64,000 nt of DNA, from positions 23,999,001-24,063,000 of the forward strand of contig NC_092673.1 in NCBI RefSeq assembly GCF_964355755.1. The letters are read 5' to 3'. The position numbers and the translations under genes are program-made. Below the pieces are notes generated by a model. That model was not told the origin of the DNA, ran no database searches, and saw only the letters and a program-made list of their open reading frames with translations. This document shows positions 31,735 through 55,542 of the stretch, one piece after another; positions within the stretch are counted from its first letter, which is position 1; each line of letters starts with the position of its first letter. This stretch comes from Antedon mediterranea (Eukaryota > Echinodermata > Crinoidea > Comatulida > Antedonidae).

Positions 31735-32535
31735 GTCTTCAATAACGTCAAAAAGGGTTCACGTTATTTGAATGTTATTTCTAAACATTCAAAATACGTA
31801 ATGGTAATATTCAGCTAACGTTTGGTGAACGTTGGACTCAACGTTCTGTGAACGTTGTTCGAGGGTTAAAACTACGTTAGTCATAACGTTCAGCTGACGT
31901 CAAAAAGGGTCCACAACTTAATGTTATTTGAACGTTATTTCAAAACATTCAAAAAACATAAACGGCAACATTCAACTAATGTTCGCTGAACGTTGACTGA
32001 ACATTAAACTAACGTCAGTTTTGACGTTCTCCGGACGTCACAAAGGGTCCACATCTGAATGTTATTTGAACGTTATTTCAAAACATTCAAAAACATAAAC
32101 TGTAACATTCAACTAACGTTCGCTGAACGTTGTTTAAAAGTAAAACTAACGTTAGTTATAACGTTCTCCGGACGTCACAAAGGGTCCACATCTGAATGTT
32201 ATTTGAACGTTATTTCAAAACATTAAAAAAACATAAACTGTAACATTCAACTAACGTTCGCTGAACGTTGTTTAAAAGTTAACTAACGTTAGTTATAACG
32301 TTCCCCGGACGTCACAAAGGGTCCACATCTGAATGTTATTTGAACGTTATTTCAAAACATTAAAAAAACATAAACTGTAACATTCAACTAACGTTCGCTG
32401 AACGTTGTTTAAAAGTTAAACTAACGTTAGTTATAACGTTCTCCGGACGTCACAAAGGGTCCACATCTGAATGTTATTTGAACGTTATTTCAAAACATTC
32501 AAAAAACCTAACCGTAACATTTAGCTAACGTTATT
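31735..32535. repeat. 137-bp AACGTT satellite (right array)
   Basis: The word CCGGACGTCACAAAGGGTCC, or its variant, recurs at 31893, 32031, 32168, 32305 and 32443, a spacing of 137-138 bases. Each unit also has CAACTAACGTTCGCTGAACG and ACTAACGTTAGTTATAACGT. About 5.5 copies are present, ending close to the right end of the large insertion. Confidence 0.92.
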
Positions 32536-32558
32536 TGAACGTTAAATTTTTAGCTGGG

Positions 32559-33055: not shown

Positions 33056-36000
33056 ATGAGTTTTTTTAGACGTATTTATCGCAGAAATCAACCACAATGT
33101 GACGATGTTACTTTAAACTGGCTCAGGGAATCAAATATTGTGTTTGGTCCGACGACAAGGTAATTTAATACTCGAATCATTTAAGCCTAAGACTTGGTTA
33201 GAGACCACAAGACAGAGTTATGATGAACGGGCAACACTGCAACCAATCCCTGAAAGAAATCTTTGTACGAACTGATCAGCTTAGGCCTAGCTTTGATTGT
33301 GTTCTTACATTTTGTTTAGGTTGTCTTCAACCATGATAAATTGATTAGATAAGCTATCTGTTGTTCGACTAGGCCCACAGTACCTAACCTAAAAGTGTTT
33401 TTTTGTAGTAAAATATCAACACTACACTACATTACCCCTTTCACACCAAAAGCAAAACTCCGGAGACACCCCGGAGTTGACGTCCCGCTGTTTGGTGTGA
33501 AAGGTAAAATCAAGCAACTCTGGAGTTTAAAACTGCGGGGTTGAACAGCTGAACATTCTCCGGAGAGCGAACTGCGGGGACACCCCGGTGTTTTGGTGTG
33601 AAAGGGGTATAAGACACTGACAGAATAAAAACAAACAATAGCTGAAAAAAAAGGAAATGCCTGTACTACTACTAGCCTAGGCCCTAGTAGCAAATATTTG
33701 TTTGCCTCACTATCCAGTAATAGTATCCTAATTAGACTAGACTAGACCTATGTCTAAATAAAGATAAATAAACAATTGACCTGATAAATATATATTATAC
33801 TTTATAGGCTTATTATACTGTTCTGTAGCCTAGGCCTAAATATAGTTTGTACAAAAATGACCCTTTTTCTCCATTAATTAATTAATTTAACACTTTTTCA
33901 ATATGTTTAGAATAAAAACAAAAACCTTTTTTTTTCTCAGTTTTATCAACTTTCCTGGGCATTACAAAAAAAAGCACTGTGTTTTCCAATCTGTGGAGAG
34001 TCGATGGAAATTCATTATATTGTGTATTCAACCCCTATATAATATTAACCTCGCTCCTAAGTAATCACTGAACCTAACCCTCTATATACTGTATAATATG
34101 CCCCTCGTTAGTACTAACGTTTGTGGTATTATTATGTTGCATTGTGTCGTGTTTATTTCAGTGAAACAACAATTATCTCTTCGCTTTTAATTATTTTGGT
34201 AATGTTTTATTTTTTATAGGAATTTATTGAGTGTTTTTGAAAAATATGACAAAGAAACTGGAAAATTAGACAGAAAGTCTCTGACTGAAGCATTAAATGC
34301 ACTTGATCTGTTTCCAACAAAATCGCAAGGTTAGGACACATTTAAAAAAATCATAAATCATTCCGGTTGGAGCATTCAGTACATATTCATACATATGTCA
34401 ATATAAATTTATTAATGTATTTACAGTATAATTGATCTTGATTTATTTTTATCAATCGGAGGGCCAAGAATAAAATTGTTAATTTTTCAGTATATGAGAT
34501 GATCAAAGTTGCCAGTGAGTGTTCACATAGGAAACCCGAGGATCATGTATTGTTTGGAGAATTTTGTATATTTGCTACTGAACTGATTGAACAATATGAG
34601 CAACAAAAGTAAATATGTTGTAATGACTCACTCACATAAGCATTAAATGTATCTTCAACATTCTAAAAGATTTTTTTAGTAAATTTTTAGGTTCTTAATT
34701 TTTCCCTTGTCAATAATTTATTGGAATTTAAAGTAATACATACTTTAATTATCTATACCCTTTTTGTAATCTAATATTTTAATTGTTCACATCTTAATTC
34801 TTATTATCACTTTATGATTTAATAGTGCCTAGTTAAATTCTAAAGGCCAATTTACACTGATCAGTGGGAAAGGTAAATGGAAAACGGCTTAGCTTGTATC
34901 ATGTAGATTCTGTGATCTATCCTTAGCTGAAACTGCCCCTCCACCCCAAGCTTTGTGTAAATGTTCATAAGGAATAACAGAGATCCTATATTTGTATTTC
35001 CGTTACCGCTCATCTGTGTAATTAGGCCTTTGTACTTAGATATCAAATTTCAACTCAAATGATCTACATTACTTATTATAATGTAAAATACAGGGAAATT
35101 ATCAATATTAAATCTTCCTCTGGATTATTATTTTTTTATTTGATATAAATATACCTATATTTTATACTACTAGCTGAACTTTGAATAAATAAGATTAGGT
35201 TATTCAATTTCAATTAAAAGTACAATCAGTTCCTACAAACAAATTAAATGTTTTTATTTGTCTATTGCAATAATAAGATACAAGAAACTTTCTATTTTTT
35301 CGTAAAAAAAACAAAACATATGTCAGTTGTCAGCAAATCCAATTAAAAAGATATGACTAGTTAGCAGCCACTTTTAGATATATTAGATTATATTTTGTAA
35401 TACCATTTTTCAAAAAAAATTTTATTTTACAGACTTTGTCTTTCAACCGACGATGCAGGCTATTCCTCAACACATCCACCTCTACGTCCACCATTTTTGT
35501 CATATATGTCCAGTTTTCAAGGTACAGTATCAACACCAATAAAATAACCACTCTCTTTTGCAAAGAGCATTTATGTTACCAATATAAATAATAATAATAT
35601 ACAATGATATTTGTGTGTTTGTCATTAAAATACAGTAGAATTGCTATCAAGGGGACATGTGCATTACCCAACAAAGTGTCCCCTTGATAGGGGTTCCAGA
35701 ATAGAGGTTCAACTGTACTATGGTCTTATTGTAATGTATATGTACACACTTAGTTGGCCATACTAACAGATAATTTGTATTATACCTCAAGAGTGTATTC
35801 ATTATCTTTAAAGAAATAATGTTTGTTGTTGTTGATAATTCCTTTTTAATGTCACATACTAGTTATCCATGTTGAACAAAGATTCAATTTTATTTACCTA
35901 AAAAACTTTAATTTAGAGCAACAACAAAAATTCAAATTCACTGCCAGCCAATTTGTTGAATTTTATTATTTATTTTGTCATTTTATAATTATGAGAAAAC

Positions 36001-39000
36001 ATTATTATGTTTTTCTTGTTTTGAATTAAAGGGATTAACTACATTAAAACTTCAAATTAACCTATTCAAAGTCTGATTTAATTAATGTTCTTGGGGGACA
36101 ATACATCTTTTTTCGAAAGACAATACATCTTTAAATGTTTACAACAGTATAAATTGAATGTTTTGCAGTGTTTCTTGGTGGATCATGCAACCCAACAACA
36201 TGGCGACATGACATTGCTATACCCTTACTCAAGCAATATGGGTTAACATATTATAATCCTGTAAGTATAGTTATAACAGATTGCATAGATTTACTAATAA
36301 CTATTCTTAGCTGGCTTCTTGCATGCTCTTTAGATATTATTATAATTACCGTGATCAGTAATTGTAATTTCCTAAATAAGATGCAAAATCAGTATTCAGC
36401 ATTCCCTTATGAATATGATATTCATTAACATTTGCTGTAAAAGCAAGTAAAATTTGTAAAATTATGCATTGCTGGGTGCAGCAGGAAAGGGGTGCAGCAG
36501 GAAATGGAATATGAGAGACAAGAATAAAAACAATTATAATAATTGGTGTTTCTGCTTTTTACAATTGATAGTAGGTCTTTGTATGGTCCAAAGACCTGCT
36601 ATGTGTGTCTTTGGACCATACAAAGAAAAGTCTTGTACTTCTTGTCAATCTCTTAATTCATTCATTCCAACATTCATCTCTAACAATGGATGAATTGGAA
36701 TAGTACAGATAAAGGTACTCTCTTTCAATTAATTAATCAATTTCCCAATAATTAATTCATTCTAAAAAATAATAATAATAATAATGGCAATCATTTTAAT
36801 TACATTTGAAAAACAAAACAAACTACTGTAGTTATGGATAAAAATGGATGAATTGGAGTAGTAGAAATATTAAATTAAAAATATGTTTTCCATCTTCTCT
36901 CTCAGCAAGTAGATGAGTGGGACCCTCATCTCATTGAGGTAGAAGAACAAGCCAAGCAGCTTGCTCAACTGCTTGTGTTTGTCATAGATAATACAACACG
37001 CAGTACAGCTTCGCTTGTAGAGGCAGCTTACCTTGCAGGTAATGTGATGAAGGAAAAATGGTAAAGCCACTTTTGACCAACTTTATCATCATTTAACATA
37101 TTGTAAAGCTCTATCAAATTTTATGTGTCAAAAAAAATGTGATGTGCCCATATATGAACATTATGACATCTATCACTACCATATTTAGGCATCACTATCA
37201 TATTTAAATGGCATATCACTGCCATATTTGGCACATCACACTTTTTTTGTCGAACTAGTTTGATAGTGTAGACAGAGCTTTAGCCAACAATAAATCCACA
37301 CATCCATACTATCACGGTGGGCCTGGCAATATATTATACAGTATTGTTGAATGAAATTTGTCTGCTTATGACTACAGTATGTCTGCTACAGCCATGTATG
37401 TGTTTAATTTTAAACTCCTTGTTAATTGAATGTGCATTTTTTATGTTTTAGGAAATGACCGTCCAGTTATACTTGTGATCAAAGGTCTACCTATTGAAGT
37501 TGCTGGAGAAAAACTAACAGAATCGTAAGGATTTAAACAAATTTACAAACACAATCTGCATTGATTAGTCTTTTAATATTATTTCTAATCTAATAACTAA
37601 CATTAATCTAATAACTGTAAAAACAGCTTTGTATGTTTGACTGTGAATATTTTTTGTAGAAAGAAATGCACAGAAGTTGGCAACTGTTAGAAATTCAATG
37701 TGTTCAATTGGAATTATTATAATTCAATTTCATAGTATCTCTGATCAGCTATCAAAACTTAATTTACTTCCATCGTAAAACAATCATTTCAAATAAATCA
37801 TTTTAGCCACAAAAAAAAATACCCGTATATTTCGGTGTATAAGTCGCACTTTTGAGACGCAAATTTGACCTCTAAATCAAGGGTGCGTCTTATACACCGA
37901 ACATAAATGCCTCACCACACAGATTGTACATAGGCGTAGGCCAATAGTATAGGCTATCGTCACCTCGTTTGCTAGGCCTAGCTACAGTAACTAACGTAAC
38001 GGCAACCTGCTTGTGCCTAGTTTTCAAGGCATTTTAGCATGATGTTATACTAAATATGATGAAAAGATTTGTTCATTATGGCGCTCCGATAAAATTTCAT
38101 TTGTAAACGTTTACGTACGATCGATTGGAATAGTATTTATTTATACAGTAGTTATACGCACGATCGCCGTACCCCCAGTGCAAGCCCTCCTTTGGCGGCC
38201 ACATGGTGAACGGTATTCGACTAGTATATTCTCCAGGTGATTATAGCATGGACCTAGCGTACACACTTCTTGGATACATAGATACTGATCGAATACGATT
38301 GTCCGTGAAAACATGCGCCCTCTCGAAATGATCGAGCGAGGCTAGCCCACACACGTACATGTTACACACACGGTCATGCACTCGATGTTGCGGCGAAACT
38401 CATGAATAACAAGTTAGAAAGAACTTGTTGAGGCTGGGTGCGGCCGAGCCTAGGTAAGAAAAAACCTAAATAAAGGACGCCGTTGTAGATATAACAAAAT
38501 ATATTATTAGAATAATATTGATTACAATTTAAAAAAACATTGTTTTGATGAAATATAAGGTGCGTCTTATACATCGACGATATAAAAAATACCGGTATTT
38601 TACTCTCAGTTAGGGGGTGCATCTTATACACAGGTGCGACTTATACACCGAAATATACGGTAAATATAAAAATAGAGTTTGTATTAAATACATTACACTA
38701 TGCTCAGTTATACACAAACTTGATATGTTTTCTTGTTCATCAAGATACCAAACATCCACACACATTGTTGTATATACCTTTTTTCCTTATGCTGTCTAAT
38801 GTCACCATTCAGTTCTTTTATTTTAAAATTTCTGCACCTTGTTAGTCTAAAATAATCATTTGAAATTATAAAACTTATATGCACTTTTTGATTTTAAATC
38901 TCTAATTTTATAATTTAAAATTTAACTTTATTTTTCTTTCAGTTTTTAACCACAAAGAAATCTTTTTATATGTTTTAATTATATGCATTGTTCATTTGAC

Positions 39001-42000
39001 AGATGCTCACAGAGTCCCGTACTTAATGAATATGATTCCCAATGGTAATTGCATTTTATCACCAAAATGTTGTTTTTTTCATTTGCACGATAAACTAATG
39101 ATTATATTCATTTGTCTCTGATATGCATAACATTATATTGTCTGAATAAAAAGTAGTTTTTTTATAGGTATTGTGCTTCCAAAACTAATAATTTTAAAAT
39201 GATTGCTTGGTTATTTTTTATTGTCATCAAGTAGCAAGTACAACTCGCGTGTGAAGGTGTTGAAGAATTGTGTGGGGTGTTATGAGGTTCGTCCAGGGAA
39301 GGAGATTCTTTTTTTAAATTGGCCCCTTTTCAACTTTCAAAAGTGTAATATTCATTTGAATAATTGTTGAACTTTGATTCGTAATTGTCTACAAAAATGA
39401 ATTAAAAAATGTTATTTATTTCATTTACATTGAGAAAGTAAATAGAACATTTGTTGCAACTATACCGTCTTTGCATAAAATATATAGAATGTATATTAGA
39501 TTTAGATGTTTAATATTTTAAAACAATATTATTATATACATGCATCAAAATATGAAACATATTCTGAAACTAATAACTTATTTGCATTAGAAAAAATAGA
39601 ATGTAGATGTTTAATCCTATAAAAAAATATATGATATTTTTTATTACATCCTACTCTTGCATAAACACAATGTTAAATAATAATTATTACCATGAATGCT
39701 ACTTCTTTATACTTATCATTATTATTTATTTAAATTTATGTTGTAATTTGTTTTGTTTGCTTGTATTTTGTTCATTTTTTAAAAACCAAACTAAATCAAC
39801 ACTTTCCAATATTTGTATGCCAACAAAAAACAAAATCCTTATAAGACAAAATCATGACATCATTTTGATTAAATTCACTTTTATTAGTGATGTACCCATT
39901 ATGTAAATATTAACATATTTTACAAAATAGTAATAATATTTTATAGTTGCTTGGTTTTTGTAAACACTATTTTATGAACAACTATGAAATACAATGGACC
40001 CCATACCTATAAAGAAATCTTGAAACATCTTTTTATCTTAATCAAATAATTTCTTTCGGATGATCCAAAGCGAATGAAACCGTAAACTTGTTTTTACTCT
40101 AGGTTTTGCTGGTTCAAAGACGCAGCTTAATCATGAGTGAGTCTATGTGACTCTATTGTTACCATGAAATCTCGTATTTGGTATATCACCATCTATGGAA
40201 CGTTCAGGTTTACCCAAATGGGTACAAAATTATTTGAATACTATACAGAGATCCGGATGAACCTTTTTACTTATATATTTATCTTGTCTTTTCACATTTA
40301 TTTACGTGCCCTTCTAAACTGCAGTTCTCAAATTTGTGCTGTTAGGCTATAATAAACAGATTTCACTTTGTTTGCTTCCAATGCAATAAAAAGAATTGCC
40401 TCTCATCACCCATATATCATTACTTTATTTGGTGTGATAACATTTTTATTAAATCAATATTTACATTTTATCATTGCAATTAAAACAAAATCTACAATGC
40501 ACTGTCATAAATCGTCATTATCATGATTAATATTATATCATTGACTTCACTCAGAAATCTAAAGTATACAGCAGAACCCTCCTCCATTGGTACACCCCTA
40601 TTTAGGGGACATGCCTATTAGGGCACACTTTCTTATGGTATTGATGAAGGGAAACGTATGTTTTTAACGATATGGCCACCCTCTGGGACTCTATTAAAGA
40701 GACACTATTTTGGATCACAAAGGTGCTCCTTAATGGTGGTCTACTGTCATTTTAAAGATAATTATTTAATTAATATATATTTTTCTTGCAGTGAATTGAA
40801 TGACTTAAATAGAGGACATCATTTTTTAATAGATCTTGTCCAGCGAAAGTGTCTACCGATATTTGAAGACATCGAAACTGCCGTACATTGTGCGGCAAAG
40901 GTCATAAATCAAGGCATTTCGATCTCGGAACTGGACATCAAGGATGGTGCTCAGCCAGTCAAATATCCTAATGTTCGTGTCGGGCAAAAATTAATGTGAG
41001 TTGTGCACAATTTAATGGAAAAACAACTCCATTCTTCCTCAAAGACTTAGTGTAAGACATTGTTTTTGCAGAGAATCTTGCGTGTACTGTATGTTTTTCA
41101 ATGAATTGTCACATGTATTTTTGGACATTCGCTATTGATAGTCTTTGGCCTAAATAAAATAATATATAATACATCATCAGCATATTTTCAATTTGTTTAT
41201 TTATCAATTTTTTTTCTCTTTCAGTAATACAAAATGTGCCTTCAAAGAATTCCACCAAAAAGATATTAGTAAAATCAGCATAAAAGATGTAAGTATACTT
41301 TATGTATACATTGATTGTAAAAGATTACAAAAAAAACTAAATCTCTGTCCACACTATCTCAATCTAGTTTGACAAAAAAGTGTGATGTGCCCAAACATAA
41401 TAGTGATATGACATCATCATACCTATGTATGGACACATCACATTTTTTTGTCACATAAAGTTTGATAATCTATTTTTTAAGCAATAATTGATGCCAATAT
41501 GAGAGTTCCCATTATTTGTAGTATAACGAGTATAAACCTCTTTTTAAATAATATAAAAATAGCCATGAAAAAGAGACAAGTGTCAAGTCCATCAAAACAC
41601 ATACTGTATACTCTAACAACTTGTAACAAGTTGTAACCATGTTTGTATAGTGTGAAGACAATTTTCAGGAAATTCTCTCGAGATTTTACATAGGACCCAC
41701 GATGAGAGACCTGATTTTGTTCTGAGATGTTCCGAGTTGTTACTGCATGCACGTGTATTGCCCTGGTATTACTGACTGACCAATCATAGTAATAAATAAC
41801 GCTACTATGCTTTCTCCCAAAGATTTCTTATGGTTCGCATGCGTGTTTAAAAACGTGCCGAAAATCGCGAGATCAAACCTACAGGTTGTATATTATACCG
41901 TTTTCCAGATACACTACTAAATTATTTTTTTTTATTCAGTCATTATTAGCCATGAAGTCACTGCATCACAAGGAATTCTCTTTCCCCGTCTACTGGCAAA

Positions 42001-45000
42001 TTGAAGAGAGTTCAAGATTTTCAAACGAAGATGAAAAGTGCTTTGATTTCAACGAGTTCTGTTGCTTAGTAACACAGTATAGAAATTACGAACAACCAAC
42101 TCATCCATTTTCTAGAGTATTTTCATATCTACAGAGTAGTATAAGTAGTAAGTATTTATTAATTTAGTAAATTTAAAACTGAATTTAAAATGTAGCTATT
42201 TACACCTTACACATGACATGGTTGTTTGCCTTTGAGTCCAAATCTTACTTCGGACAAACCAATTTGTCCTTGTTGATAATATTTTGGCCACGAAACATCT
42301 TGTGCATACATGCTGGAGTATTATAGTATATGTGTATACAACAGACTTTCTGAATGCTCGGCGATTCCCTGTGTTTTAGCAAATTTCAATCTATCTATTG
42401 AATATTTCCGACTACTACAGTAAATGGTCAGATGTACTCCACAGTAGTTACAAACGATTTCAAGCCTGTTGGTGCAGTACCTGCTGCTTACTTGGGCTCG
42501 AATCTAACCTCTAGCCATCAGCGCAAGCTCGGTGTTGAGGTATGAACGCCAGGCTAGTGATCTGGAGGCCGTTGGTCCCACTTAAGAATTACTTGCATAT
42601 TTAAGTATTCTCAATGTACTTAGTATGATGAAGTACAAATTACGTCAGAGTAGGGCAAAACATCTGACCATTATTACTCAACTCCCTGACGCAAAGATAT
42701 TTAACAGTAGTTCCAAACAATTACAATACTACAGTAAAAGGACTTCTGTGGGACACTCCAAGTGAAATGAATGGAGGGATATATGCGTTTATATATACAA
42801 TAGTAATACTGTTGCCAACACCTCTAATTGTTTTGTGCATTTAATAGAGGTTTTACTTGATTTCAAGTTGTCTATTATTCTATTTAATGTATAATAATAT
42901 ATTTTGTTTGTTTTCATAAGGTGTTGTATCTAGGTGGTCCCATCACCCTCCTACATGTGTACCTGTCCTCAAACGAGACGTCTATCTTGGTGGTACCTGT
43001 CGTAATACTACATGGCGAGAAGAAATATCAATTCCCTTACTCAGGTATTTAATGGTAGTGTTATGGAAATCTTTTAGATGGTGCATGTCATTTGCATAGC
43101 CAATTTGTATGTTATTATAGTAGTGGAGCTGTAGCTTGGTGGCTAACATGCTTGCTTTCCAATCTCAAGGTCCAGGGTTCAATCCTGACCTAGTGCAGGG
43201 TTGTAACTCACAACTCTTTTAACTCCATCCCATAAGCCTCAAATGAGACTTAGTTTATAAGCATGATAAATTTTTAAATACTTTATCTATTCTGTAATTG
43301 GCGAGTTACTTGCTGTTGAATGCGTATGAAAAAGGGCAGCATACTTGAATAAGTGCATTTTGTAGAATTGTAAATAATAAATAAATTATTTTGTTTGACA
43401 AATCCAGTCAAGAATTTACTCACGTTCTTTAGCTTTCGCTATCTTGGCTGATGGCTTGATCACAAGTGATCCGGTACACTGCTACTTCCTGGAAATCTGT
43501 TGTTATAGTTTGAATGTGAGTAAATTCTTTACTGGATTTGTCAAGCAAAATGATTTATTTAGGGCAGTATACTGTTTTCAGTATACTGCCCTCTCCTCAT
43601 CTCAATTATTATCAGTTTATTATTATTTATTGCATGTGACTACAGCTTTATCTATGTATTACATACAGAAAAAATATCTCATAAATAGATTTAAGTTCAT
43701 TGTCCAACTTCTTAAAAGCTTGTTTCAGCTGTGGCACAGATCATGTTCAGATTCAGTAACCGTATTCACCATTCACACTTGGCTAATGAAAACACTCTTA
43801 AAATTTAAAAAATATCTTATCTAAGAGAATACAATGTAAGGGAAAATACTTATTGAGTTATAAGCGAAATACCTATAAGGGAAATATCTCACTTAAGTGT
43901 GATTGGTGGAAAAGGGATTGGCCTCTCAACCCTCTCCACCCCCTTTGAACGAGCCAAGGCCAACCCCTATTAGGGAATACCTTTTTGTGTCCCGCAGATG
44001 CCCTATTAATAGAGATTCTAATCGATATTTTTGTATAAAAAAAAAAAGATTAATCTGTCCTATAAACACTACCTCCAGTTTTTGATTACTTTGTTTTGAT
44101 GGAAGATGACTCATGATAATATTTGCCGTGATCATCATTAATTGAGGAGACACCCTGTAAATTGTCATATTTTAGAAATCTGACAGCATCAAAACCAACA
44201 CTTTATGTCAGAAAGAGACAAGTCGTAGGTCGATGGATGAGTAATTCTCTGATAACATCTCCCTCGGTCAACATCCTCAACACATTTCTTATAATTATAC
44301 AGGATGTTGTCAACAAGATTTTAGCAAGTTCTATCAACAAAAAACCTGTTCTAACAGAATTACTAAAAGAAGGTGTTTATAATAGTTGCCATTTGTTAAT
44401 GAAAGTGTTAGTTGATTTTGAACATAGTTCTGTCCTATCCCCTCTCTACCTTTCTCCAGGCAAACTGATTATATTTGTTAAAAGAAAGCCTACCCAATAG
44501 GCCATTCTGTAAAAATGGTAAACAATTAGTAAGTTCCAAAGCTTCTTTCAAAATAAAGGTATTTGTATCCCCAAAATTTGAAATAATCTATAGAAATGTG
44601 TCAGGCAAGGTTATGTTCTCATGCTCTCTCTTAAACCCTCAAAGGTATGAAAACATCTAGTAAGAAGCTGAGAATTTTATACAATTAGTAAGTTTCCAAT
44701 CTTCTTTATCAAAGTAAAGATATTTGCACTCCCCAAAGTTCATGAAATATCTATAGAAATGTGTCTGGCTAGGTTCTGTTCACATTCTCTCTATTAAACC
44801 CTCAAAAGTATGAACCTTTTAAGACCTTTCAGTGGTTATCAATCCACTAGAATTAGAGTTTTTTTCTGACTGACCCCTAATTTGAATGGCACTGTGATCA
44901 ACTTGGTTTACCCACTCCATGTTTATAGTCATACTGAAAATTGAGTTTAAATACAGTAATATTTTAAACCTTAGTGTAAACCATCCCTTGATAATTTGCA

Positions 45001-48000
45001 TCTACTGTTTGATTAACTCTTTCATTCCTATAACTTTAAAGTATTTTGTCATTGACACATAGGATGGTATGCTGCCCTTTATTGCCCTGTAGAGCATTTA
45101 TTTTTATCCGTACATGACATTCACGCTAGAAAAGGAATTATTTATAAGGAAAATCTTAAGTGATAAAACGGTTTGCAGGAAATTAATATAGACATAAAAA
45201 AAGGGGTTTATAAAAAAAAATTGTATTAATAATAGCTTTATCATCACCATGATTTAATTCAAAACTTAAAGCATCAACCCTCTCCAAAATTTATTTATTT
45301 TTCTCACGCTTTGTATTTTTTAACTTTCACTGTATACTAAAAGCTCACTTATATCCAAATGCATTGACATTTTTGCTGTATGCATCAAAACTCCTAAACT
45401 GTCATTACAATTACTGTGGTGTATTTATAAATGAATTATTCTTTATTGAGAATATAATTGACATCTTTTTCTAGATTTATAAAATATTTATTCCCCCCAA
45501 TGCACCCCCTCTCCTGTATTCCCCCTCTAAATGTATCCCCCTCCAAAGTATTCCCCTCAATGTATTCCGCCTTCAGGATGTGATGCTTATTATGGTGACT
45601 TGTGTTAAATCTAGTTACTCTGATGTACTATTTAAAAATAAGCTTTGATCTTGTACAAAATGTTTGCTAATGACCTCCCAATGAGGAGTGAGTGTTTTGC
45701 AAGTAGTGAGTGAGTAGTCTTGAGTCTGCTACTCTCTGCTCTAAATCTCAAACATCTCATACATGTATATTTACAGGGATTTCATGTTGATCGTTTGTAT
45801 ACAACAGGAAGAAATGTCATGTGTACCTCTGTCCTACATTTAGCTACTGAGTTTTACAGAATTAGCACATGGGTCACTAGGTCCTGTGAAGTTGCAATTT
45901 GTCGTGTGGAATCCTTTACATTTCGCAACAGCTGAATTTACATTTCTATGTCAATAATAGGCTTAATAACTAGAAGTATTTTAGCAAATGTTAAATGATT
46001 CAATATTTAGAGATGGAGTAGATTATTGGCACATTTGTTTTATTCATCATAAATTTTGTTTTATCAGAACTTTTGATTTTTTTAACATGACCAATTTTAT
46101 TAGTAAATTTATTTCATTGGGAGTGAATGCATCTTAATTTTCTGCAGAAATTGTTTGGGTGTAGCAACACTATACATTTATTTAAAAACTACTTATGCAA
46201 AACAGCTTTTATCTATCCTAATATACACAGTAGTAAAAGAAGTTTCTTTAGAATTATTCATAATTCTGACTCTGTATGCTGCTATATGCTGCTGCTATAT
46301 GTCGAATATCCTACCACTAATGACATGCTTGGTCAAATTTTGTCACTCTAGACTCATCTAGTGCTAGCACTAAATCAGCACTAGGTCTGGTCCCTCGAAA
46401 TGTATGTATTCAAATAAATTAATTCCTAATTTCATTGATGGCCACTACAGATAATATGATGTATTTAATTCATGTAACCCTCTTCAGCATTTTACATGTT
46501 CTGAAGATATTGTCTAGTCCTTGTTTTTAATTAAGTGTATACACTTACTTCACAAGGAAACACACATTATCAATCAAAAACAGGTCTTTATAATTGGTCT
46601 AATTGGTCTATCAAAACTCATGGTAAAGAAGTGATGTTGGAAATAGGGCAGCTGACAATTATAGCAAGAAAAGGTTAAATATGAATGATCTTTCTCATTT
46701 CTCTTGGGACTCTCTATCGAAAGTTGACTAACGTCCATTAGGATTTTGAACTATTCCTATTGGTCATTTCAATTCTTGGAAAGAAAAACATTATGGTCAA
46801 CTGCGGCACATTGAATGAAATTGAAAGTTAAGCATAGATTTGATGTCAAACACCTAGGGATCTCAGCTGTTACTTTGTTTTTTCAAGATAACACTAAAAT
46901 ATGGGACCATAATTTATTCTATGTAGAATCCTATTGTTCTTAAGGAGACACCATTGAGACCTTTATACCTGTAGGCGGAGTTGGATTGAACATAAGTGTA
47001 AATTTTGTAATGGTTGGTACTTGATTGTTTGAAACATCTTCGATATGCAATTGGTATTGCTACAGTGTGGTGGTTAGAACAGGGAGTAACTCCCTGGTTA
47101 GAAGATTTTCACAGCATACAGTACCTCATGTGATGTCCAAATACAACTTGACTAATAGTCAGTCAATACTGGTCATCTAAACCCAATTAGTTTATCACTG
47201 TTATCGGTTTAAGAAGGTTTGCCTAAAGGGAGGGCTGAATGCCCATGGGAAGGTAATGTTCTCAATCCTGTGTAAACAGTTTAAATATATGAGTTAATTC
47301 TGTCATTCACACGAATATATAGTAACAACCATGTCATGCCTGTGGTGCCAAATAAATCCCCCTACTTGAGTCAGATCTGTTGTAAAAACAAGGCCTTGAA
47401 ACCAGGAAAACATACTTTAGTCAGTAAGAACACATCTATGAATCTTACGAGTTTGTGATAAAGATGTGCGTGTGGCACGGTGTGTTTGACGTTAGATTAC
47501 AGATCGTGAGTTCGAATCCAACAATTAAAATTATGCTCAGAATAAAATGTGTACATTTATTTTGGACAAATAACAAAGTAGGAATGAAAAAGTGTGTTCC
47601 TTGAACTAAATATGTCAGTATAATAGAAATTACAAAACTGTTTTTCATTTGGAATATCTTTATATTAGATTCTTTCTATCACTGACTGTCATTTTATTCA
47701 TTAAAATGAATAAAATAAACATTTCATAAAATAAAAGTTGAAGAGTTAACACTGAGATTACAGTATGTGTTGCCATAGACTAAAAAATATTGGTGGTGGT
47801 ACTGCTGCAGCTCCTACTCTCTTTCATGATCTCTGATTTAGTGTCAATATTTTGACCGGCTTACTGTATCTGCCACTACATGTTTTTTAATTTCATTGAT
47901 TCTGAATATCTGCTTGAACTGTTAACTATGAAGTGTGTCAATCCCAGTTTTATGACAGTCAATGTATTAGTAAATCTGTCAAGTGAATATGAAATACTTA

Positions 48001-51000
48001 TTGTAGTATTTAGTACTTTAAGCTATATGTCGTCATCAAGTACTTATAAATTATATGTACTAGATGGTACGCTCGCTTCGCTCGCGTACCATCTAGGTCG
48101 TGCCCACAGATGGTTCTCGAATACATAATAATTTCAGCGTTAAAAAACTGGCGATTTCAAATGTATGTACAATAATACATGTCGTTTACAGGAAAGAATA
48201 AATAGACAATGATTTATGTACTCAATTAAAATTAGCACCCTGAGAATTACTTCCGAAAGAGAAACTTGTCACAAAATGAGACCAATTGTTTAAGTCAAAT
48301 TTAAACAAACTTAATTTGTGTTTTGTATGTAACATTAGGGGTGAGGGATGGGGAAGAGGATGGGTGCAAAGAGGAACAATTTTTAAATATATTAAATATA
48401 TTCTTTATCCATTTAGTAACGAAATATTAATTGTTTTCATGTTTTACAAATAATATACCACTAAACACAGTAAAACATTGCTATGTAATACTTTGTTGAA
48501 ACTATCACCGTCCTAGTCGATTGAAATAGTACAGTACATGTAACGATACATCACTACGACGTGTATGTTTATATAATGTAAAACAATTTGTGAAAACCAC
48601 CTCCATTCGAGGAAAATCATAAATTCGATTTAATCGTCAATAAATATTAAATTATCTAACTCAACTTAATTAGTAGGCCTAATGGTTTTCAATTGTTTCT
48701 TAGAGCCAATTCATACTTAAGTTGGTTCTTACCCTACCCACCAAAGTTGTTCTGCGTTTAGGGGATGTGATGCACCGTAGGCCTATCCTGTACTGGCTTT
48801 ACAACGCTACTCGTGCCAGTGAGGGAAGGGTGATGATGTGGGTGGTTTAAATGCAATAATAAAGATGTTTACATAATATACTGCGACTGAAAACGCTAGC
48901 TCATTATCCGTTTAAAAAAAATTATATCCAACCTCTGCAGCACAGATTGAAAAAAAAAATGGATCAAATTTCTGTTATGAGTATACAGCACTTGCCTTTA
49001 CGACGCCTGAGGGAATAGACACTTGTGGAACAGAGATTGGAATGTTCCATTCATCGCAAATCAATACATTTGTATAAACGTATATTAAATCTATCAAAAT
49101 AGTATTTTTTAAAGAAAAGCGGCCTGTCTTCAACATTATGATGCTGTACTCGAGCTGTTCAACCGGTTTTCAGCCATTAAAAACAATTATCGTAGGAGGA
49201 GATAGGAAAATGCGAAGCATCCTCGTATTATTGTCTGTGGGTATTTTTCAAGACGGACATCCATTAGACAGTGTATACCACGATCGAAAAACACCCCTAT
49301 TTGGGGCAAATCGTTGAACCTAAATTCGTTTTAATTGTCAATAACTAATTATCTAACTCAATTTAATTAGTAAACAGGGTTACATCAGGTGGTTAAAATC
49401 AGTACCGAGATTCTAACCAACTTTATATACCATCGAGTAAACATTCTAGAAATAACGCGCGATTTACCGAATTTTGCCCTTACGTAAATTTATATATAGA
49501 TATATTAATGTTCATTATTCAGTCCAGCTAGTTCCAAAATATACAATATAATACTAATAGAGAAAACACAATCATTGGCTCCACTTTATCATCCCTTTCA
49601 TTTTCAATTTCTCCTTCCGCCAACATCAATATCTTATTGACATTTATTTGGCTATGAGAGTTGTTGTTACCATTTCTTTTAAAATTGATGTCGTCCCAAT
49701 AGAATCCTACAGACTGTTAGGAAGCTTTGAATAAATTGACAAACCAATCTGGATACAAACAATAGTTGGCACTATGCTAAATGCTTGTCAGTTAATCTTG
49801 GCCAAATTTCAACTGGATACAAACATTCCGGATCCCTTCACTTTAATGGTTTGTAATATTTCGTGTAAAGCTTTAAATTACACCGATTGTTGTTTACCTT
49901 TTTTTTAAATATGATGATTTAGGTATGATGTTTGATAGAAACCTGTTTTAGAATGATACATTTGTTTTCATTTGCACGCCCGTAGATAGCTTTGTTTGCT
50001 GGAGTGTCCTTTTCAAGCTGGAGACTAGTAGAAGAAGTAGTAGCCTAGCTCATGACAATCCTTTCATTTTTTGTGGAAACATCTCTATACTAGCCACTTC
50101 TCCCCCTATACAAGTCCTGGTTTAGAGAGGGGACACCCATAAGGCTTATTCAGACAGTGTTGACAAGGAGCCAGGTTGTCTTGAGGCTAAGTTGACTGGA
50201 GCTTAGTGGTTTAGGATCAAATTCATTCAGACATTGGTCCATAAAGGTCTGTCTACACTATCAAACTAATAGAAATATGGTAGTGATATGACATCATCAC
50301 CTATATATGGGCACATCATACTTTTTGTCACATAAAGATTGATAGTGTCGACAGAGCTTTAGAATGGAATTGGAGAAAGGGGAGGCTTTTATTTATTTAT
50401 TTATTTTTTTTTTTTTTTCAATCTTTCTTTAATACATTGAAATAAAAAAAAAAAGCAGACAGAGAAAAAATAGAAAGGAAGCTTTTATTGGTTTCAGATA
50501 TCCAATTGGAAGAAATGGAAAAGGAGGGAAACCATTATTGGTCATTAAAAAGGAATTAAAACTGATGCATTGTTGCAATTGTACTTGTTATTTTAGTCCC
50601 ATCATGCATTGCAAAAGTCCAGGTCCATATCATGAGAGATAGTTTGCGGTATTCCTCCTCATAGTTCACATAAGAAAGTTGGTAGTGTTCAACTAATTAA
50701 TTATCGCTTATGTATAGTGATCTTTATTAATAAACGATATTGCGCATCTCGGATCATTAAAGCTGAAAAGCTATAAAAATAGCACATATAATGAATAAAA
50801 AAATAATTTAATCATCTTACATTTTCATTTCAAAGTAATTAATGATAATTCAATATAACTTGGTTTCATATTTTAGACTCATTTTTAGCTAAAACATGTG
50901 AATGTATAATGAATAGCGATGTGTCACAGATAACATGTTACTTTGCACCTTTGGGAATATCACAGCATTGATTTAAAAAAAAACATTATTTAAAGTAAAT

Positions 51001-54000
51001 AATTTTTTTATGTTAGATGAATCATTCCTGCCTGTCATTGGTTATTTGTCTGGAATCTGTCAAGACAACATACAGTATGTCGTTCTAACTTGTGTTTTAC
51101 TGTAGTCTATATTTCTATTCATTGACATACACTTTAAACATACACTTAATTAAGTATGTGTGACTGTGACATAACAAGAGGAGCAACCCCATATATTTGT
51201 TCCATAAGGATATCTGAAATCAGTCTGTTAAAAACATGACATCCCGAGAAGTATTTGTGGATAGTATTTTTGTGGGTCTAGTAACACCATCTGCACATTC
51301 TCCAACGTATATTAAAATCATGTTAAATAAACGTATTTAACTTTCTCCAGATTCATATAGTATGTACTTCAAACTGTCTACTTCAATGTTTATCTCTCTC
51401 TTTTTGTTGTCGTTCTCAGTAGGACCGTCAACATTCTCTTGCATGCTACCAGAGAATTATAGGGCAATTGTTCTGCTGGAATGTCACTCTGTTGCAGATG
51501 CAGCAGGCTGGAATATAGTTTTCTCCAACTAGACATATATACCTATTGGTCGTGCTGCAGCAGACCTTTATTACCATTTTAACTGTCATACAGACATCAA
51601 AATATCTGCCTAAAATCATATATATTATGCTATGCTCTGTGTTAGCACCCATTCTCTTTTCACATAGTTCTAAGCTTATTGTATTTTAATTTATTTAAAA
51701 AAAATATGTCTATAATTAGGAGGGTTGTTCGCTCCATCAAACCCCTTCTACTGGCGCCTATGACTCTTTCATTTGTTTGATAAAACTATAATGCATTCTC
51801 ACTCCTGAGGACGATCAAAGTATATTGATCGAAACGTTGAGAAACTCAACAGTTGATTTCACCATGCAAACCTTCAAACAATATAAAACTATAATGGCCA
51901 TGAGCAATACATATAATTTCATTTAATTAACCGAGTATTTCATGTACAGTATAATTAGAATATTTGTCACGCTTCATAGACCTTGAGAGGTTTGTCAATT
52001 TAACGGTATCTCTTCTTTTGTCTGTGGCTTCCAAACTACTTGTGATAAGCCAGCATTTGATTGGCCGATGCTTGGTCCCTGGCACTCACTGGTACTGTAC
52101 CTTGTTAGTGTAATACTGTACTTTTATACAAGTGCAACAATTTTACTTTTAATTTTTCAATGGCTTGTTTATTATTTCCAGGTTAGAACATTAATATATA
52201 TATTGAATGATGAAAGGTTATATTTCCACGAGGTACGGTGAAGGTTATATTTCCATTGAATGCCATTATTTGTACCATTCCATGAATATAAAACATTCAT
52301 TATATGTTTTATATAACATCTAAATAAATTCATTTTAATTAGGTTGAATAAAAGGTACATTTGATTGAAAAAGAGTAACATTTATTTGTTTTTTGAATTT
52401 ACATAATTAATATATGCCTATAAATTCTCATTTGTTGTTTTTATAACATACTAAATAGATTTATCTGGATTTTTAAAAGCCAAACTTTTTTTGTCTTTAG
52501 ATTTTTACTTGTTTAAAAAAGTAACTGGCCCATGGAGGTGAAAGTGCTGTGATTTGTAATTAGATTCCTAAATACCATCATTTGATTGGTGTGGAACTTC
52601 ATTCATTTTTGTAGCAAAGTACAACTCATAGACTTTTTATTTTAATGTCACAGATTGTTTTTTAAAAATGATAACACTGTTATTGAAACAAAAACAAATC
52701 GTGGAAGTTGGGTTTGATATAAAAGAAAAATATTATTTTTTGGATGTGTTTTATTAAATTTACAAGATGGATTTTATTCTTCTTTATTTGTTCATGTTTT
52801 TTAATACATTTAGAATACAAACAAGATTTGTTTTAAAAACTGATGAAATATTGAAAGCAGCTCTGTAACAATCATCTTTACTTTGATAATTTGGATATAG
52901 CTTCCAAATAGGTTAAACATTTTTTAGAAAGAGAGTTGAAGTCACTTATATGTAAGTGGCTGGATAATTAACTTCAGATTTACCCATTTGACTTTACCAA
53001 TATTGGCAATGATTTTTTTCCGAATTAGTTTGTCACTGTCACCTAATATTGATGATTAGTGGCAGAATCTATTACTTTTCAAGTGTGCCAAGAAAAATGT
53101 CAAATCAGATCTTTTCTAGCGCTAAAGATTTTTTTTCCTGAATGTACCATTTCCCACAGATGTTTTTGTTTTTTATTTAATACTAGAATAATCATACATT
53201 TTACAAACTAACTTCAGCAGTTTTCTTATCAATTTCCTTATCTACTTATTGGTATACCCAGTTGTTTTTATCTGTCTTCCTGTGACTCAATTTGTTTACA
53301 CCTGTAATCAATCAAATGTGACACCTGTGACATGTTTAAATCATCACCTGGAATTCTTGACTTTCAACACCTGTAACTAGTTATGAATACTTTTGTTTAG
53401 GAAATTGCATAAAGCGAATGGCGTAGAAGCCATAGGTAATATAAGTATGATGTAAAGGGCTAATTCAAATTCATTATATTATAAAAATAATGAATGAATA
53501 TTTAATATTGCAAATAAAATTGCATCTGAAGTTTTCTCGGCACTTGACGTGGGTATACGCCAATCTTTTTAAATTGATATATGAATGGCTTGTCGCATCA
53601 TGAAAGCGAAAAGTTGCTAATGATGTACGCGCAATCTGACACAAACCTAAACTGAAGTCAGAGCAGGTATTAAAGACCCTGACTATTTTCACAGGCTGTA
53701 AAAACTTAGAGCCCCCCTCCCTCAACAACGTCCAAAGTGTTCCAAAAGGGTTTGACTGCAAAGTATCCAAGTTTATTTATTATGTTCTTGAATATGTCAC
53801 AGCAATATCATATAGTATAACATCAATTATTACTGAGGCTTGACACTAAATCCCATATCATTTTTTTAATTCATCAATTACTTATTTACAGTATATCAAC
53901 AAGACTAATATCATTAATAGAAATCACACATTACTAAATGTGTACATTCTTATGCATAATTGAATAATCCATTAGGGGCTTGAGAGGATTATAATAGTGT

Positions 54001-55542
54001 GAATATTTTGAAAGAAATTCATTTATCCTTGTAAAGTTTGTAATAAAAAAAAATAATCTTGTTACAATATACATTTTTCGTTAGTCATACCCTTTCCTAA
54101 GCTCCCAAAGGACTTGCATGTTATTGGTAGCAATTAGTACCATAAGGTTCAGGGAACTTACGAATTTGCGTCGAACCTGGATATTTTGCTAGTTATAATT
54201 TATAATAATAAGTTAAAGGAGTTCTCAGCAAGCAGCCTGTTGTTGCATTTCATATGAACCACCAAGAGCTAATTCTAAAAAAAAATAAAGTAGATAAAAG
54301 TAATTTTAAGAATGTTGTTATTGCTAAAGCATTATCAAATATTCAGAACACGCATCACACACACAAATAAAATACATTTTAACATTAGATACTGTAGTTT
54401 TTAAAAAGGAGTTTCACAGTGCTTGTTCTACATTTCTCAAATTAGTCAAAATACAAACTACAAGCTTGGTTTCTTTTGTTTTTTTTTCACTTATTGCACG
54501 CATGCTTTTTGCATCTTGAAAAACCAAAATGCCCTGGTTTTTGAGAACACATTTTATGAGATCTGTAAAAAAAAAAAATTCTTTACAAATCTTTACAGAA
54601 ACCATGGGCTTTCCAGTTTTAATCCACAATTAACAGAATGGGATCTTCGTTATATAGCAATTGAGGCGGAGGCTAAAGAAAACTCCGACTACATGTTGTA
54701 TGTGATCGGTAAAGGCAGCCGCGGCGTTGCATCAATGATTGAAGTTGCATACTACGTAGGACAAGGCCGAAAGCTTGTTTTATGCGTGCAGGATTTAGAG
54801 TATGGACTGACGATTGGAGGAGAAAAGGTGAGAAACTTTTTAGATTGTCTTTAAAAGAAACAGAGGAAATGCTGACTGGACACTCAACAGTTTCAGAGTA
54901 AGGGCTAAAATAACAGCATATTTCTGTGGTTTTGACAATAATAGCAAGTTATTATTTTTTTTTAATAGAGCTAATGAGCTCAATGTCCCTATTTTTGCTT
55001 TATGCCTAATTTTTATGATCTAACTTGATATATGATGTTTTTATGAATTGATAAATTTATTTAGTCTCTAGACAAAATTGTCAAGGACACTTGCTTTTTT
55101 CTTCCAAAAATATATTAGAAACAAGTTTTCACTAAATAAATTTATAAATTTCTTTATTCAACAAACCTTTGCTTTTTTATTATACTACAAACCATATGAA
55201 TATTGATGAGGTTTCAATCAATTTATGATTTCCAGTTTATCTATATTAGTTTCATTATTTCAGTTTTTGTTTTGGTATTTGGTTGAAATAATTGCGACCT
55301 TTTAGTTTTAGTTTCCTTTTCACATTAGATTTTCCTTTGTTTTCTCACTTCTCTTTTCTTTACAGCTTACTCAACGTGCAATAACAGACTACAACCGAGC
55401 TAGACAATATCTTACAGATGTTGTTAGTCGATGTGGTGTACCGATTCTCGACGATATCCAAACAGCGACAGTAACCCTCATTGAGAAAATTGAAGCAGAG
55501 AGGGCGCTCAAAGTACAGAAGTCGTTAGCAGTGTGTGAATAA
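33056..55542 (+). CDS. Tandem EF-hand / nucleoside 2-deoxyribosyltransferase-like protein, 13 exons
   Basis: Exons: 33056-33159, 34220-34329, 34491-34608, 35433-35521, 36169-36260, 36906-37038, 37452-37524, 40792-40995, 41225-41288, 41940-42147, 42921-43044, 54599-54827, 55366-55542. The frame is kept across all junctions, giving 574 residues. Order: degenerate EF-hand pair (about 30-115), deoxyribosyltransferase-like domain 1 (141-270), EF-hand-like segment (about 345-385, with CFDFNEF), domain 2 (419-560). The two enzyme-like domains align throughout: FLGGSC/YLGGTC, TTWR, IPLL, NPQ-x2-EWD, LVEAAYLAG/MIEVAYYVG, GEKLT. Glu210 and Glu488 sit where family enzymes carry the catalytic nucleophile. 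Known family members cleave or transfer the N-glycosidic bond of deoxynucleosides; activity here is unproven. No signal peptide or membrane segment was seen. From memory, a similar domain occurs in the Drosophila raw family (unchecked). I have no reliable symbol. Confidence 0.85.
33435..33607. mobile_element. Near-palindromic MITE with TA target duplication
   Basis: It starts CCCCTTTCACACCAAAA and ends TTTTGGTGTGAAAGGGG, with TA on both sides (33433-33434 and 33608-33609). CTCCGGAG motifs are repeated inside. At 173 bp it is non-coding and lies in intron 1 of the EF-hand/deoxyribosyltransferase-like gene. The TA duplication suggests a Tc1/mariner-type or similar mobiliser. Confidence 0.85.
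34843..35032. mobile_element. MITE family B, copy 2 (diverged)
   Basis: The ends are AAAGGCCAATTTACACTGAT and GTGTAATTAGGCCTTT. Internal blocks such as AGATTCTGTGATC are recognisable but shuffled relative to the other copies. It lies in intron 3 of the surrounding gene. Confidence 0.7.
35632..35717. repeat. Small inverted repeat around GGGGACA
   Basis: CTATCAAGGGGACA and TGTCCCCTTGATAG are inverted copies separated by about 20 bases. Similar TAGGGGACA-type words occur near 12890-13010, 40570-40630 and 50110-50130, so this is a dispersed low-copy repeat. Located in intron 4. Confidence 0.5.
36576..36626. other. Perfect 20-bp hairpin in intron 5
   Basis: The arm TCTTTGTATGGTCCAAAGAC (36576-36595) is followed by an 11-base loop and the exact complement GTCTTTGGACCATACAAAGA (36607-36626). 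It has no mismatch or bulge. It could be a tiny foldback, a replication snap-back product or a small-RNA hairpin. The stem is shorter than a usual animal pre-miRNA. Confidence 0.75.
37105..37281. mobile_element. MITE family A copy, opposite orientation
   Basis: The left end is AAAGCTCTATCAAATTTTAT and the right end is TTTGATAGTGTAGACAGAGC plus TTT. TA flanks both ends, as expected for a TA duplication. The internal GTGATGTGCCCATATATG and TGGCACATCACAC blocks are present. Intron 6. Confidence 0.8.
37829..38663. mobile_element. DNA element with long inverted ends (TATTTCGGTGTATAAG)
   Basis: The left end reads CGTATATTTCGGTGTATAAG followed by TCGCAC. The right end reads GTGCGACTTATACACCGAAA followed by TATACG. 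Extra internal copies of GCGTCTTATACACCGA and GCGTCTTATACATCGA occur near each end. The interior is about 800 bp with slightly higher GC and no credible protein. It is a non-autonomous DNA transposon in intron 7. Confidence 0.8.
41341..41468. mobile_element. MITE family A copy
   Basis: It begins TCTCTGTCCACACTATCTCA, contains TAGTTTGACAAAAAAGTGTG and GATATGACATCATCATAC, and ends CACATAAAGTTTGATA. The last part of the right terminal repeat is lost. Intron 9. Confidence 0.75.
43122..43390 (+). mobile_element. tRNA-derived SINE
   Basis: A box-like TAGCTTGGTGGCTAACATGC is followed by the B box GGTTCAATCCT, spaced as in a tRNA gene, then a tRNA-unrelated body (GGGTTGTAACTCACAACTCT, CATAAGCCTCAAATGAGAC) and an AT-rich tail. 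A second copy, in reverse, lies at 61960-62122. Intron 11. Confidence 0.75.
43378..43562. mobile_element. Foldback element directly after the SINE
   Basis: The arm at about 43380-43427 (TTGACAAATCCAGTCAAGAA, TTTACTCACGTTC) is matched in reverse by 43512-43560 (GAATGTGAGTAAATTCTTTA, CTGGATTTGTCAAG) over nearly 50 bases. The loop is about 85 bases. It is followed by a perfect 13-bp hairpin, GGGCAGTATACTG / CAGTATACTGCCC, at 43562-43591. Confidence 0.75.
44520..44815. repeat. Diverged tandem duplication, period about 158 bp
   Basis: The copy at about 44520-44655 is repeated at 44678-44815. Shared words include AACAATTAGTAAGTT, AAATCTATAGAAATGTGTC-type sequence, GGTTCTGTTC or GGTTATGTTC, and TAAACCCTCAAA. 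Neither copy has a conserved open frame. Confidence 0.75.
47455..47525 (+). pseudogene. tRNA-like sequence with a B box
   Basis: GTGGCACGGTGTGTTTGACG followed by GAGTTCGAATCC gives A- and B-box-like words at tRNA-like spacing. The T-stem does not pair and no acceptor stem was found. It is best read as a decayed tRNA gene or the head of a SINE. Confidence 0.4.
48058..48096. repeat. Perfect palindrome with a CTCGCTTCGCTCG centre
   Basis: CTAGATGGTACG and CGTACCATCTAG are exact inverted arms around CTCGCTTCGCTCG. The centre is GC-rich in an AT-rich region. The origin is unknown. Confidence 0.8.
50243..50360. mobile_element. MITE family A copy
   Basis: It begins AAGGTCTGTCTACACTATCA and ends TTGATAGTGTCGACAGAGCT plus TT, flanked by TA on the left and followed by TTAG. 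About 30 bases of the left interior are missing. Intron 11. Confidence 0.75.
51780..51896 (+). mobile_element. Short insert with 14-bp target duplication and hammerhead-like motif
   Basis: An 89-bp insert (51794-51882) is flanked by identical copies of ATAAAACTATAATG (51780-51793 and 51883-51896). It contains CTGAGGA, a 7-bp stem CGATCAA...TTGATCG, GAAAC and a second stem GTTGAG...CTCAAC. This layout resembles the hammerhead ribozyme motif carried by Penelope-like retroelements. One stem-II base is out of register, so self-cleavage is doubtful. Confidence 0.6.

Follow-up and report, generated by a model that had tools for sequence, protein, structure and literature searches.

On the forward strand of a 64,000-nucleotide stretch of the crinoid Antedon mediterranea (NC_092673.1, 23,999,001 to 24,063,000; hereafter the window), a gene at positions 33056-55542 is predicted to encode a protein of 574 residues in which an EF-hand lobe followed by a domain resembling nucleoside 2'-deoxyribosyltransferases (NDTs) occurs twice. 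This architecture, the homology of the domains and the retention of family-invariant residues in both copies were computed directly. In our preferred reading, to which we give a probability of about 0.5 as a whole, the protein is a signalling brake of the Raw/OLRN-1 type, with a nucleotide N-glycosidase pocket retained in two tandem modules.

The two modules, in the order EF-hand lobe then NDT-like domain, had been proposed in a preliminary description of this DNA, and both the duplication and the order are borne out. In a Pfam scan of the whole protein, PF15891 (Nuc_deoxyri_tr2) matched in two stretches (E=1.4e-42, 144.7 bits against a cut-off of 30), and each domain taken singly was also above the cut-off, with 82.6 bits for domain 1 and 65.9 bits for domain 2. 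The domains are 41% identical, and their alignment score of 308 was equalled by none of 500 shuffles (mean 27). The paired motifs were found at residues 142 (FLGGSC), 175 (EWD) and 234 (GEKLT) of module 1, with Glu210 in LVEAAY, and at residues 420 (YLGGTC), 453 (EWD) and 514 (GEKLT) of module 2, with Glu488 in MIEVAY. A search of the assembly (354 Mb, 18 contigs) found two exons matching PF15891, both in this gene, and nothing elsewhere at E<=0.001; the search was made exon by exon, so that its counts are a floor. No TIR profile was among the three Pfam families matching the protein at E<=10, a level at which the filters of HMMER lose many weak matches. The domain family is already catalogued, and in that respect the protein is ordinary.

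The gene model comprises 13 exons, all on the + strand, and was rebuilt from joins predicted from sequence that preserve phase; all 12 introns are GT-AG, the phases agree throughout, and the reading frame has no internal stop. Exon 1 (33056..33159, residues 1-35) carries the ATG and a GT donor, and exons 2 (34220-34329) and 3 (34491-34608), joined by phase-consistent splicing, encode EF-hand lobe 1 (residues 35-110) with its degenerate loops. Exon 4 (35433..35521, residues 111-141), which encodes a Pro-containing linker, is the weakest-supported exon of the model, being the longest of four frame-compatible candidates that passed the splice filter. NDT-like domain 1 (about residues 141-280) and a linker are encoded by exons 5-8 (36169..40995, namely 36169-36260, 36906-37038, 37452-37524 and 40792-40995), and EF-hand lobe 2 (about residues 308-385) by exons 9 (41225-41288) and 10 (41940-42147). 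Exon 11 (42921..43044) contains a linker and the beginning of NDT-like domain 2, including Tyr420 (42983-42985); exon 12 (54599..54827), which matches PF15891 on its own (E=1.4e-8), encodes the core of this domain, and exon 13 (55366..55542) its C-terminus and the TAA stop. Exact intron sharing, considered as a mark of recent module duplication, was discarded, as in the alignment no intron is exactly shared and the nearest pair lies three residues apart in differing phases.

Intron 11 spans 11.5 kb, and the prediction might have joined two neighbouring genes, since this long intron falls inside module 2 and the joins were predicted. Such an artefact is highly improbable: every junction is phase-consistent, the intron divides module 2 itself and not one module from the other, and OLRN-1 shows the same two-repeat layout (PMC2213652). 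A 163-base imperfect tandem duplication also lies within intron 11 (44522-44814).

The EF-hand lobes are degenerate, as had been described. Lobe 1 alone gave E=0.019 (EF-hand_6), 0.064 and 0.072 with three Pfam EF-hand models, all below cut-off, and for lobe 2 alone no EF-hand family was listed in the Pfam scan. The two copies align with each other at a score of 52, against 25.6 for shuffles (equalled by 0/500), and a two-row profile of both finds centrin-2 (E=2.5e-8) and a calmodulin (E=8.6e-5). The EF-hand assignment is thus right, given the relatedness of the two lobes and what they detect when combined in one profile. The whole protein gave seven weak matches to PDB sequences, each with E of at least 0.13 and mostly to centrins. 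The canonical EF-hand loop has a 12-residue pattern of calcium ligands; read from the translation, this pattern is incomplete in all four loops, the loop SNEDEKCFDFNE retaining some acids and the first loop being one residue shorter than that of centrin.

The residues that are probably important for the NDT-like domain were found by comparison with prokaryotic and viral relatives. Among 84,980 prokaryote genomes scanned there were 38 pattern matches, four of which are relatives with 42-43% identity to module 1, from Lentisphaerae (L003), Uhrbacteria (L004), an uncultured bacterium (L005, frame broken) and Parcubacteria (L006). Among viral contigs, relatives made up four of 44 pattern matches, two of seven in a scan with a single protein, and 211 of 229 in a scan with a broader alignment, from which the best 80 of the 211 were carried on. 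The hand-picked alignment of 45 relatives consists of L003, L004, L006, the viral contig L007 and 41 of 70 distinct open reading frames of viral contigs; L005 was excluded from the small-protein alignments for its broken frame. Eight columns are invariant among the 45 (Gly145, Arg153, Asn170, Pro171, Val173, Trp176, Glu184 and Glu210 in module 1 numbering), and module 1 keeps all eight and module 2 seven, with Leu451 in place of Val. Between the two modules the residue is the same at seven of these eight columns, against 50 of the 135 others (Fisher p=0.007), which suggests that the invariant columns are positions maintained by selection. In a tree, modules 1 and 2 pair (97/59) inside a seven-row set with L003, L004, L006, L007 and L015 (98/95). 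Bacterial ancestry or transfer was considered and no direction is claimed, because module 2 and L015 have long branches, the bootstrap is unsettled and the root is unplaced.

Remoter PF15891 proteins are thinly spread: in samples taken from the phyla to which two matched genomes (G001 and G002) belong, one was found at E<=0.001 in 20 of 288 and in 20 of 286 genomes, with seven and five over the PF15891 cut-off. Short FLGGTCNxSTWR-type proteins occur commonly in IMG/VR contigs (L043-L122). Searches for known families returned none in PHROGs for five proteins, three of them from viral contigs (E<=0.001), none in NCBIfam for four (E<=0.1) and none in PADLOC for six (E<=0.01).

The catalysis of NDTs depends on a Glu and an Asp. 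In all five hhalign runs against a PF05014 set, which left out L128 (no clear frame was recovered) and kept L131 though below the PF05014 cut-off, the Glu of the (D)xGTxxExG motif was met by Glu210 (37020..37022; four runs) or by Glu488 (54741-54743 in exon 12; one run), and with the relatives in the profile the probability was 45-69% (E 5.6e-6 to 2.2e-4). The retention of this Glu in both modules, as first described, is supported, and all 45 relatives have it as well. The Asp of EWD (D177), which had been proposed as its catalytic partner, was rejected, because only one of the 45 relatives has Asp there. The invariant second acid is Glu184 (36942..36944; 45/45), with Glu462 (54663-54665, exon 12) as its module 2 counterpart; Glu184 is a candidate equivalent of the NDT Asp, which it meets (eight residues before the strand's Asp) in the window-only profile alone.

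The third position of interest is a Tyr which in NDTs and DNPH1 is hydrogen-bonded to the Glu and tied to 2'-deoxy specificity, and which is usually replaced by Phe or Ala in TIR domains with NADase activity (PMC11204291). Three global hhalign alignments place Phe142 (36171..36173) of module 1 and Tyr420 of module 2 at this position, with low confidence at that end, and the local alignments stop short of it. Among the relatives, 39 have Phe, five Gly and one a gap, and none has Tyr. We infer that a 2'-hydroxyl substrate may suit module 1 and its bacterial relatives, and a deoxy substrate module 2. The earlier label of a deoxyribosyltransferase is probably too specific: PF05014 reaches only 13 bits on the whole protein (cut-off 28.8), and the name may mislead, since Phe142 would point to a 2'-hydroxyl substrate for module 1.

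The fold was predicted for the bacterial relative L003, with the 45-row alignment as input. The model (pLDDT 93.4, pTM 0.88) predicts with confidence an NDT/DNPH1/TIR-type fold for this protein. With Foldseek, the plant TIR protein RUN1 came first (7.8e-5) and NDTs were comparable (8qc0, 6.8e-4; 4mcj, 8.7e-4). A second structural aligner placed the putative NDT 4mcj first (Z 12.8, root-mean-square deviation 2.1 over 121 aligned positions), followed by YtoQ (11.4), an Enterococcus protein (11.1), MilB (10.5), human DNPH1 (10.4) and the Trypanosoma brucei NDT (10.1), with TIR domains at Z 8.6-9.5 among the matches listed. The piece of the Antedon protein encoded by exon 12 was folded with AlphaFold2 (pTM 0.60) as helix-strand-helix-strand, Glu488 lying in the latter of the two helices, and the order of its elements agrees with the L003 model. 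The NDT-like fold expected at the outset is thus supported by homology to a folded bacterial relative that is 43% identical.

The match to human DNPH1, together with Tyr420 and the outcome of the exon-wise genome search, in which no PF05014 (DNPH1-type) exon was found, would suit a housekeeping nucleotide sanitation enzyme of the DNPH1 type, separate from Raw signalling. This is very unlikely, as such an enzyme would account neither for the EF-hand lobes and the OLRN-1-like two-repeat layout nor for a module 1 without Tyr, and a search of this kind may miss PF05014.

The signalling part of the preferred reading comes from comparison with fly Raw and worm OLRN-1. These proteins hold back JNK/p38 signalling during dorsal closure and in the asymmetry of neurons (PMC2213652), in the control of worm growth (PMC10566725) and when axons degenerate (PMC10719852). 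How Raw does so "remains a challenging question" (PMC10719852), and Raw has been described as being without additional domains (PMC5973607). Its repeat domain has been predicted to be TIR-like (PMC10719852), beside which stands our finding that TIR and NDT proteins are both neighbours in the L003 fold search. Deletion constructs of OLRN-1b define repeat 1 (77-108), repeat 2 (396-428), a hydrophobic stretch (265-304) and a tail to residue 539 (PMC2213652). The conserved blocks of the Antedon protein, V141-Q172 (32 residues) and V419-L451 (33 residues), are 278 apart; the repeat spacing of OLRN-1 is 319, or 279 after subtraction of the 40-residue hydrophobic insert. The C-terminal tails have 111 (OLRN-1) and 123 residues (Antedon), and the total lengths are 539 and 574. 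From this likeness of layout, judged from published coordinates and lengths, we consider it likely that the Antedon protein is a Raw/OLRN-1 counterpart. The remark that NDT-like domains are mainly bacterial or protist was not supported, with human DNPH1 among the close structural matches and fly and worm Raw/OLRN-1 as likely animal relatives. PANTHER presumably groups PF15891 proteins as RAW. Within the searches made of the open-access literature, we found neither a statement of a link between Raw and PF15891 nor a paper containing the Pfam name Nuc_deoxyri_tr2. By a simple offset, the ky626 mutation (G466E) falls within a few residues of Glu488, but this is arithmetic without an alignment and was not used as evidence.

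OLRN-1 acts against voltage-gated calcium channels and is an inhibitor of a CaMKII-ASK1 pathway, and the authors of that work suggest that it might inhibit calmodulin (PMC2213652), a suggestion of interest here because the Antedon protein carries calmodulin-like lobes. Deletion of repeat 1 or of the C-terminus of OLRN-1 nearly abolished its activity, and deletion of repeat 2 did not reduce it much (PMC2213652). The latter result, like the fusion of NDT-like domains to calmodulin-like lobes, would suit a pseudoenzyme scaffold, in which the domains are TIR-like platforms for protein binding that have lost both the binding and the cleavage of nucleotides, and the braking effect comes from sequestration of a kinase, a target of calmodulin or a TIR partner. 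A scaffold is possible, if somewhat unlikely, given that the Glu pair and seven to eight of the eight invariant positions are kept in both copies despite an identity of only 41%.

In the preferred reading, that of a Raw-type brake with retained pockets, the protein is probably cytosolic and would restrain Ca2+/CaMKII-MAPK (JNK/p38) signalling. With less confidence, each pocket would bind a nucleotide and cleave its N-glycosidic bond by means of Glu210/Glu184 in module 1 and Glu488/Glu462 in module 2. Module 1 might then prefer a 2'-hydroxyl (NAD-like) substrate on account of Phe142, and module 2 a 2'-deoxy substrate on account of Tyr420, and the EF-hand lobes may serve as calcium-insensitive docking units.

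Several points weigh against this reading. The likeness to Raw/OLRN-1 was judged from published coordinates, lengths and descriptions and not from sequences, and three database accessions for the Raw-PF15891 link were absent from the open-access literature searched. OLRN-1b has only 76 residues ahead of repeat 1 against 140 in the Antedon protein, which leaves little room for a full EF-hand lobe. No membrane segment was found in the Antedon protein (maximal 19-residue hydropathy 1.04), and the published statements on such a segment disagree, the hydrophobic region of OLRN-1 being absent from Raw in one source (PMC2213652) and Raw being called transmembrane in others (PMC5973607, PMC10719852). 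The PF05014 set is matched with modest probability, the 45-69% given above and 8-24% for the window-only profile, and the broader profiles place a gap where Glu184 would meet the NDT Asp. The high-confidence model is that of a bacterial relative, and the sole piece of the Antedon protein that was folded, exon 12, reached a pLDDT of 74.3. Unrelated Rossmann folds scored within the range of NDTs and TIR domains with the second aligner (LarB 10.3, PurE 9.8, a de novo design 9.6, KRAS 8.7), so that Z alone fails to single out NDTs, and the profile of the relatives gave seven matches to PDB sequences, all with E of at least 0.36 and none to an NDT. Finally, a retained Glu does not by itself prove catalysis, and an enzyme, a sensor and a scaffold cannot be told apart by sequence.

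A large protein adjoins the close PF15891 relative tail to tail in all four bacterial loci (L003:3469-5721, L004:3673-6390, L005:3619-6456 and L006:3573-6263, all on the - strand), at distances of 242, 240 and 140 nucleotides in L003, L004 and L006, whose frames are intact. These proteins, of 750-945 residues as recovered, exceed in their C-terminal part the cut-off for LSDAT_prok ("SLOG in TRPM, prokaryote"; 32.1, 32.8, 37.7 and 37.2 bits, cut-off 25.4), and no Pfam family was over its cut-off outside this domain; the L006 neighbour also gave 18 bits with LSDAT_euk, below the cut-off of 25.7. As L003 is nearly a copy of L004 (87% in the small protein), the four loci amount to about three independent cases, and since the genes are convergent they represent a conserved adjacency and not an operon. 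At E<=1e-20 the SLOG protein occurs once each in 379 and 286 genomes (two largely overlapping draws, from the phylum of G002 and from that of G004), and in each draw the single genome is the one that carries the small PF15891 gene. Among 134 loci it is confined to the same four genomes, a weak control because most flanks are of 1.5 kb. On the viral contig L007, the nearest to module 1 by identity, no such SLOG protein was found within the 6.4 kb analysed.

SLOG domains bind nucleotides and are known from nucleotide signalling (PMC9503650), and TIR/DrHyd enzymes produce nucleotide signals (PMC9503650, PMC13143021). A non-catalytic sensor, in which the pocket binds for example NAD+, ADP-ribose or a deoxynucleoside monophosphate and thereby switches the brake, in the manner of SLOG domains that bind nucleotides, would be consistent with this adjacency and with the invariant residues; it is unlikely, as the catalytic Glu is kept in all 45 relatives and in both modules and a pure sensor need not retain it. 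The Antedon genome has 20 exon matches to LSDAT_euk (PF18139, TRPM-type SLOG) at five places, which are likely TRPM-like genes. Raw-family proteins might be active N-glycosidases of nucleotides, producing or eliminating a nucleotide ligand that is read by TRPM-type SLOG domains; this link in animals is a conjecture that we regard as quite doubtful. It would mean that the bacterial pairing of enzyme and SLOG protein persists in animals, Raw tuning calcium entry and then JNK/p38 signalling by a route parallel to the SARM1 NADase.

The interest of the Antedon protein is that it points to a specific biochemical activity, open to direct testing, in a family whose mode of action in signalling is unexplained. 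If it is the counterpart of Raw/OLRN-1, a nucleotide-enzyme domain begins with the Raw repeat, and activity in the family could be tested by changing a single glutamate. The SLOG/TRPM link, if true, would unite two nucleotide-signalling systems.

Upstream of the gene, the window contains several repeat arrays. A 24-base unit is repeated 161.5 times with 91% match at 23206-27067, where there are long open stretches on both strands. The array at 28291-30155 has periods of 17, 26 and 43 bases with up to 110.6 copies, and T exceeds A on its + strand (AT skew -0.41). Arrays containing AACGTT lie at 20135-22078 (70/140-base units) and 31840-32543 (137-base units), the latter stopping about 500 bases ahead of the start codon. 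An open frame of 835 codons at 13935-16439 (+), Lys/Ser-rich and then Asp/Glu-rich, has no Pfam match at E<=0.1 and is possibly a large exon of another gene.

Compared with known systems, the Antedon protein is closest in layout to Raw/OLRN-1, with which it shares two repeats of about 32 residues, their spacing, the overall length and the C-terminal tail; it differs in the absence of the hydrophobic hairpin and in a longer N-terminus. Bacterial and phage PF15891 proteins, the nearest of them 42-45% identical to module 1, have the same invariant residues, but unlike the two-module animal protein the relatives read here are mostly one-domain proteins of 128-170 residues without EF-hand lobes. 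With NDTs, DNPH1 and MilB (PF05014) the common features are the fold of the relative, the catalytic Glu and probably the second acid, whereas PF05014 stays under its cut-off and module 1 has Phe instead of Tyr. TIR domains (RUN1, RPS4 and others) are the top Foldseek matches of the L003 model and resemble module 1 in the Phe at the Tyr position, but their family does not appear among the Pfam matches of the Antedon protein at E<=10. Centrin and calmodulin share with it the homology of the EF-hand lobes, from which the calcium ligands are mostly lost in the Antedon protein, with its first loop short by one residue.

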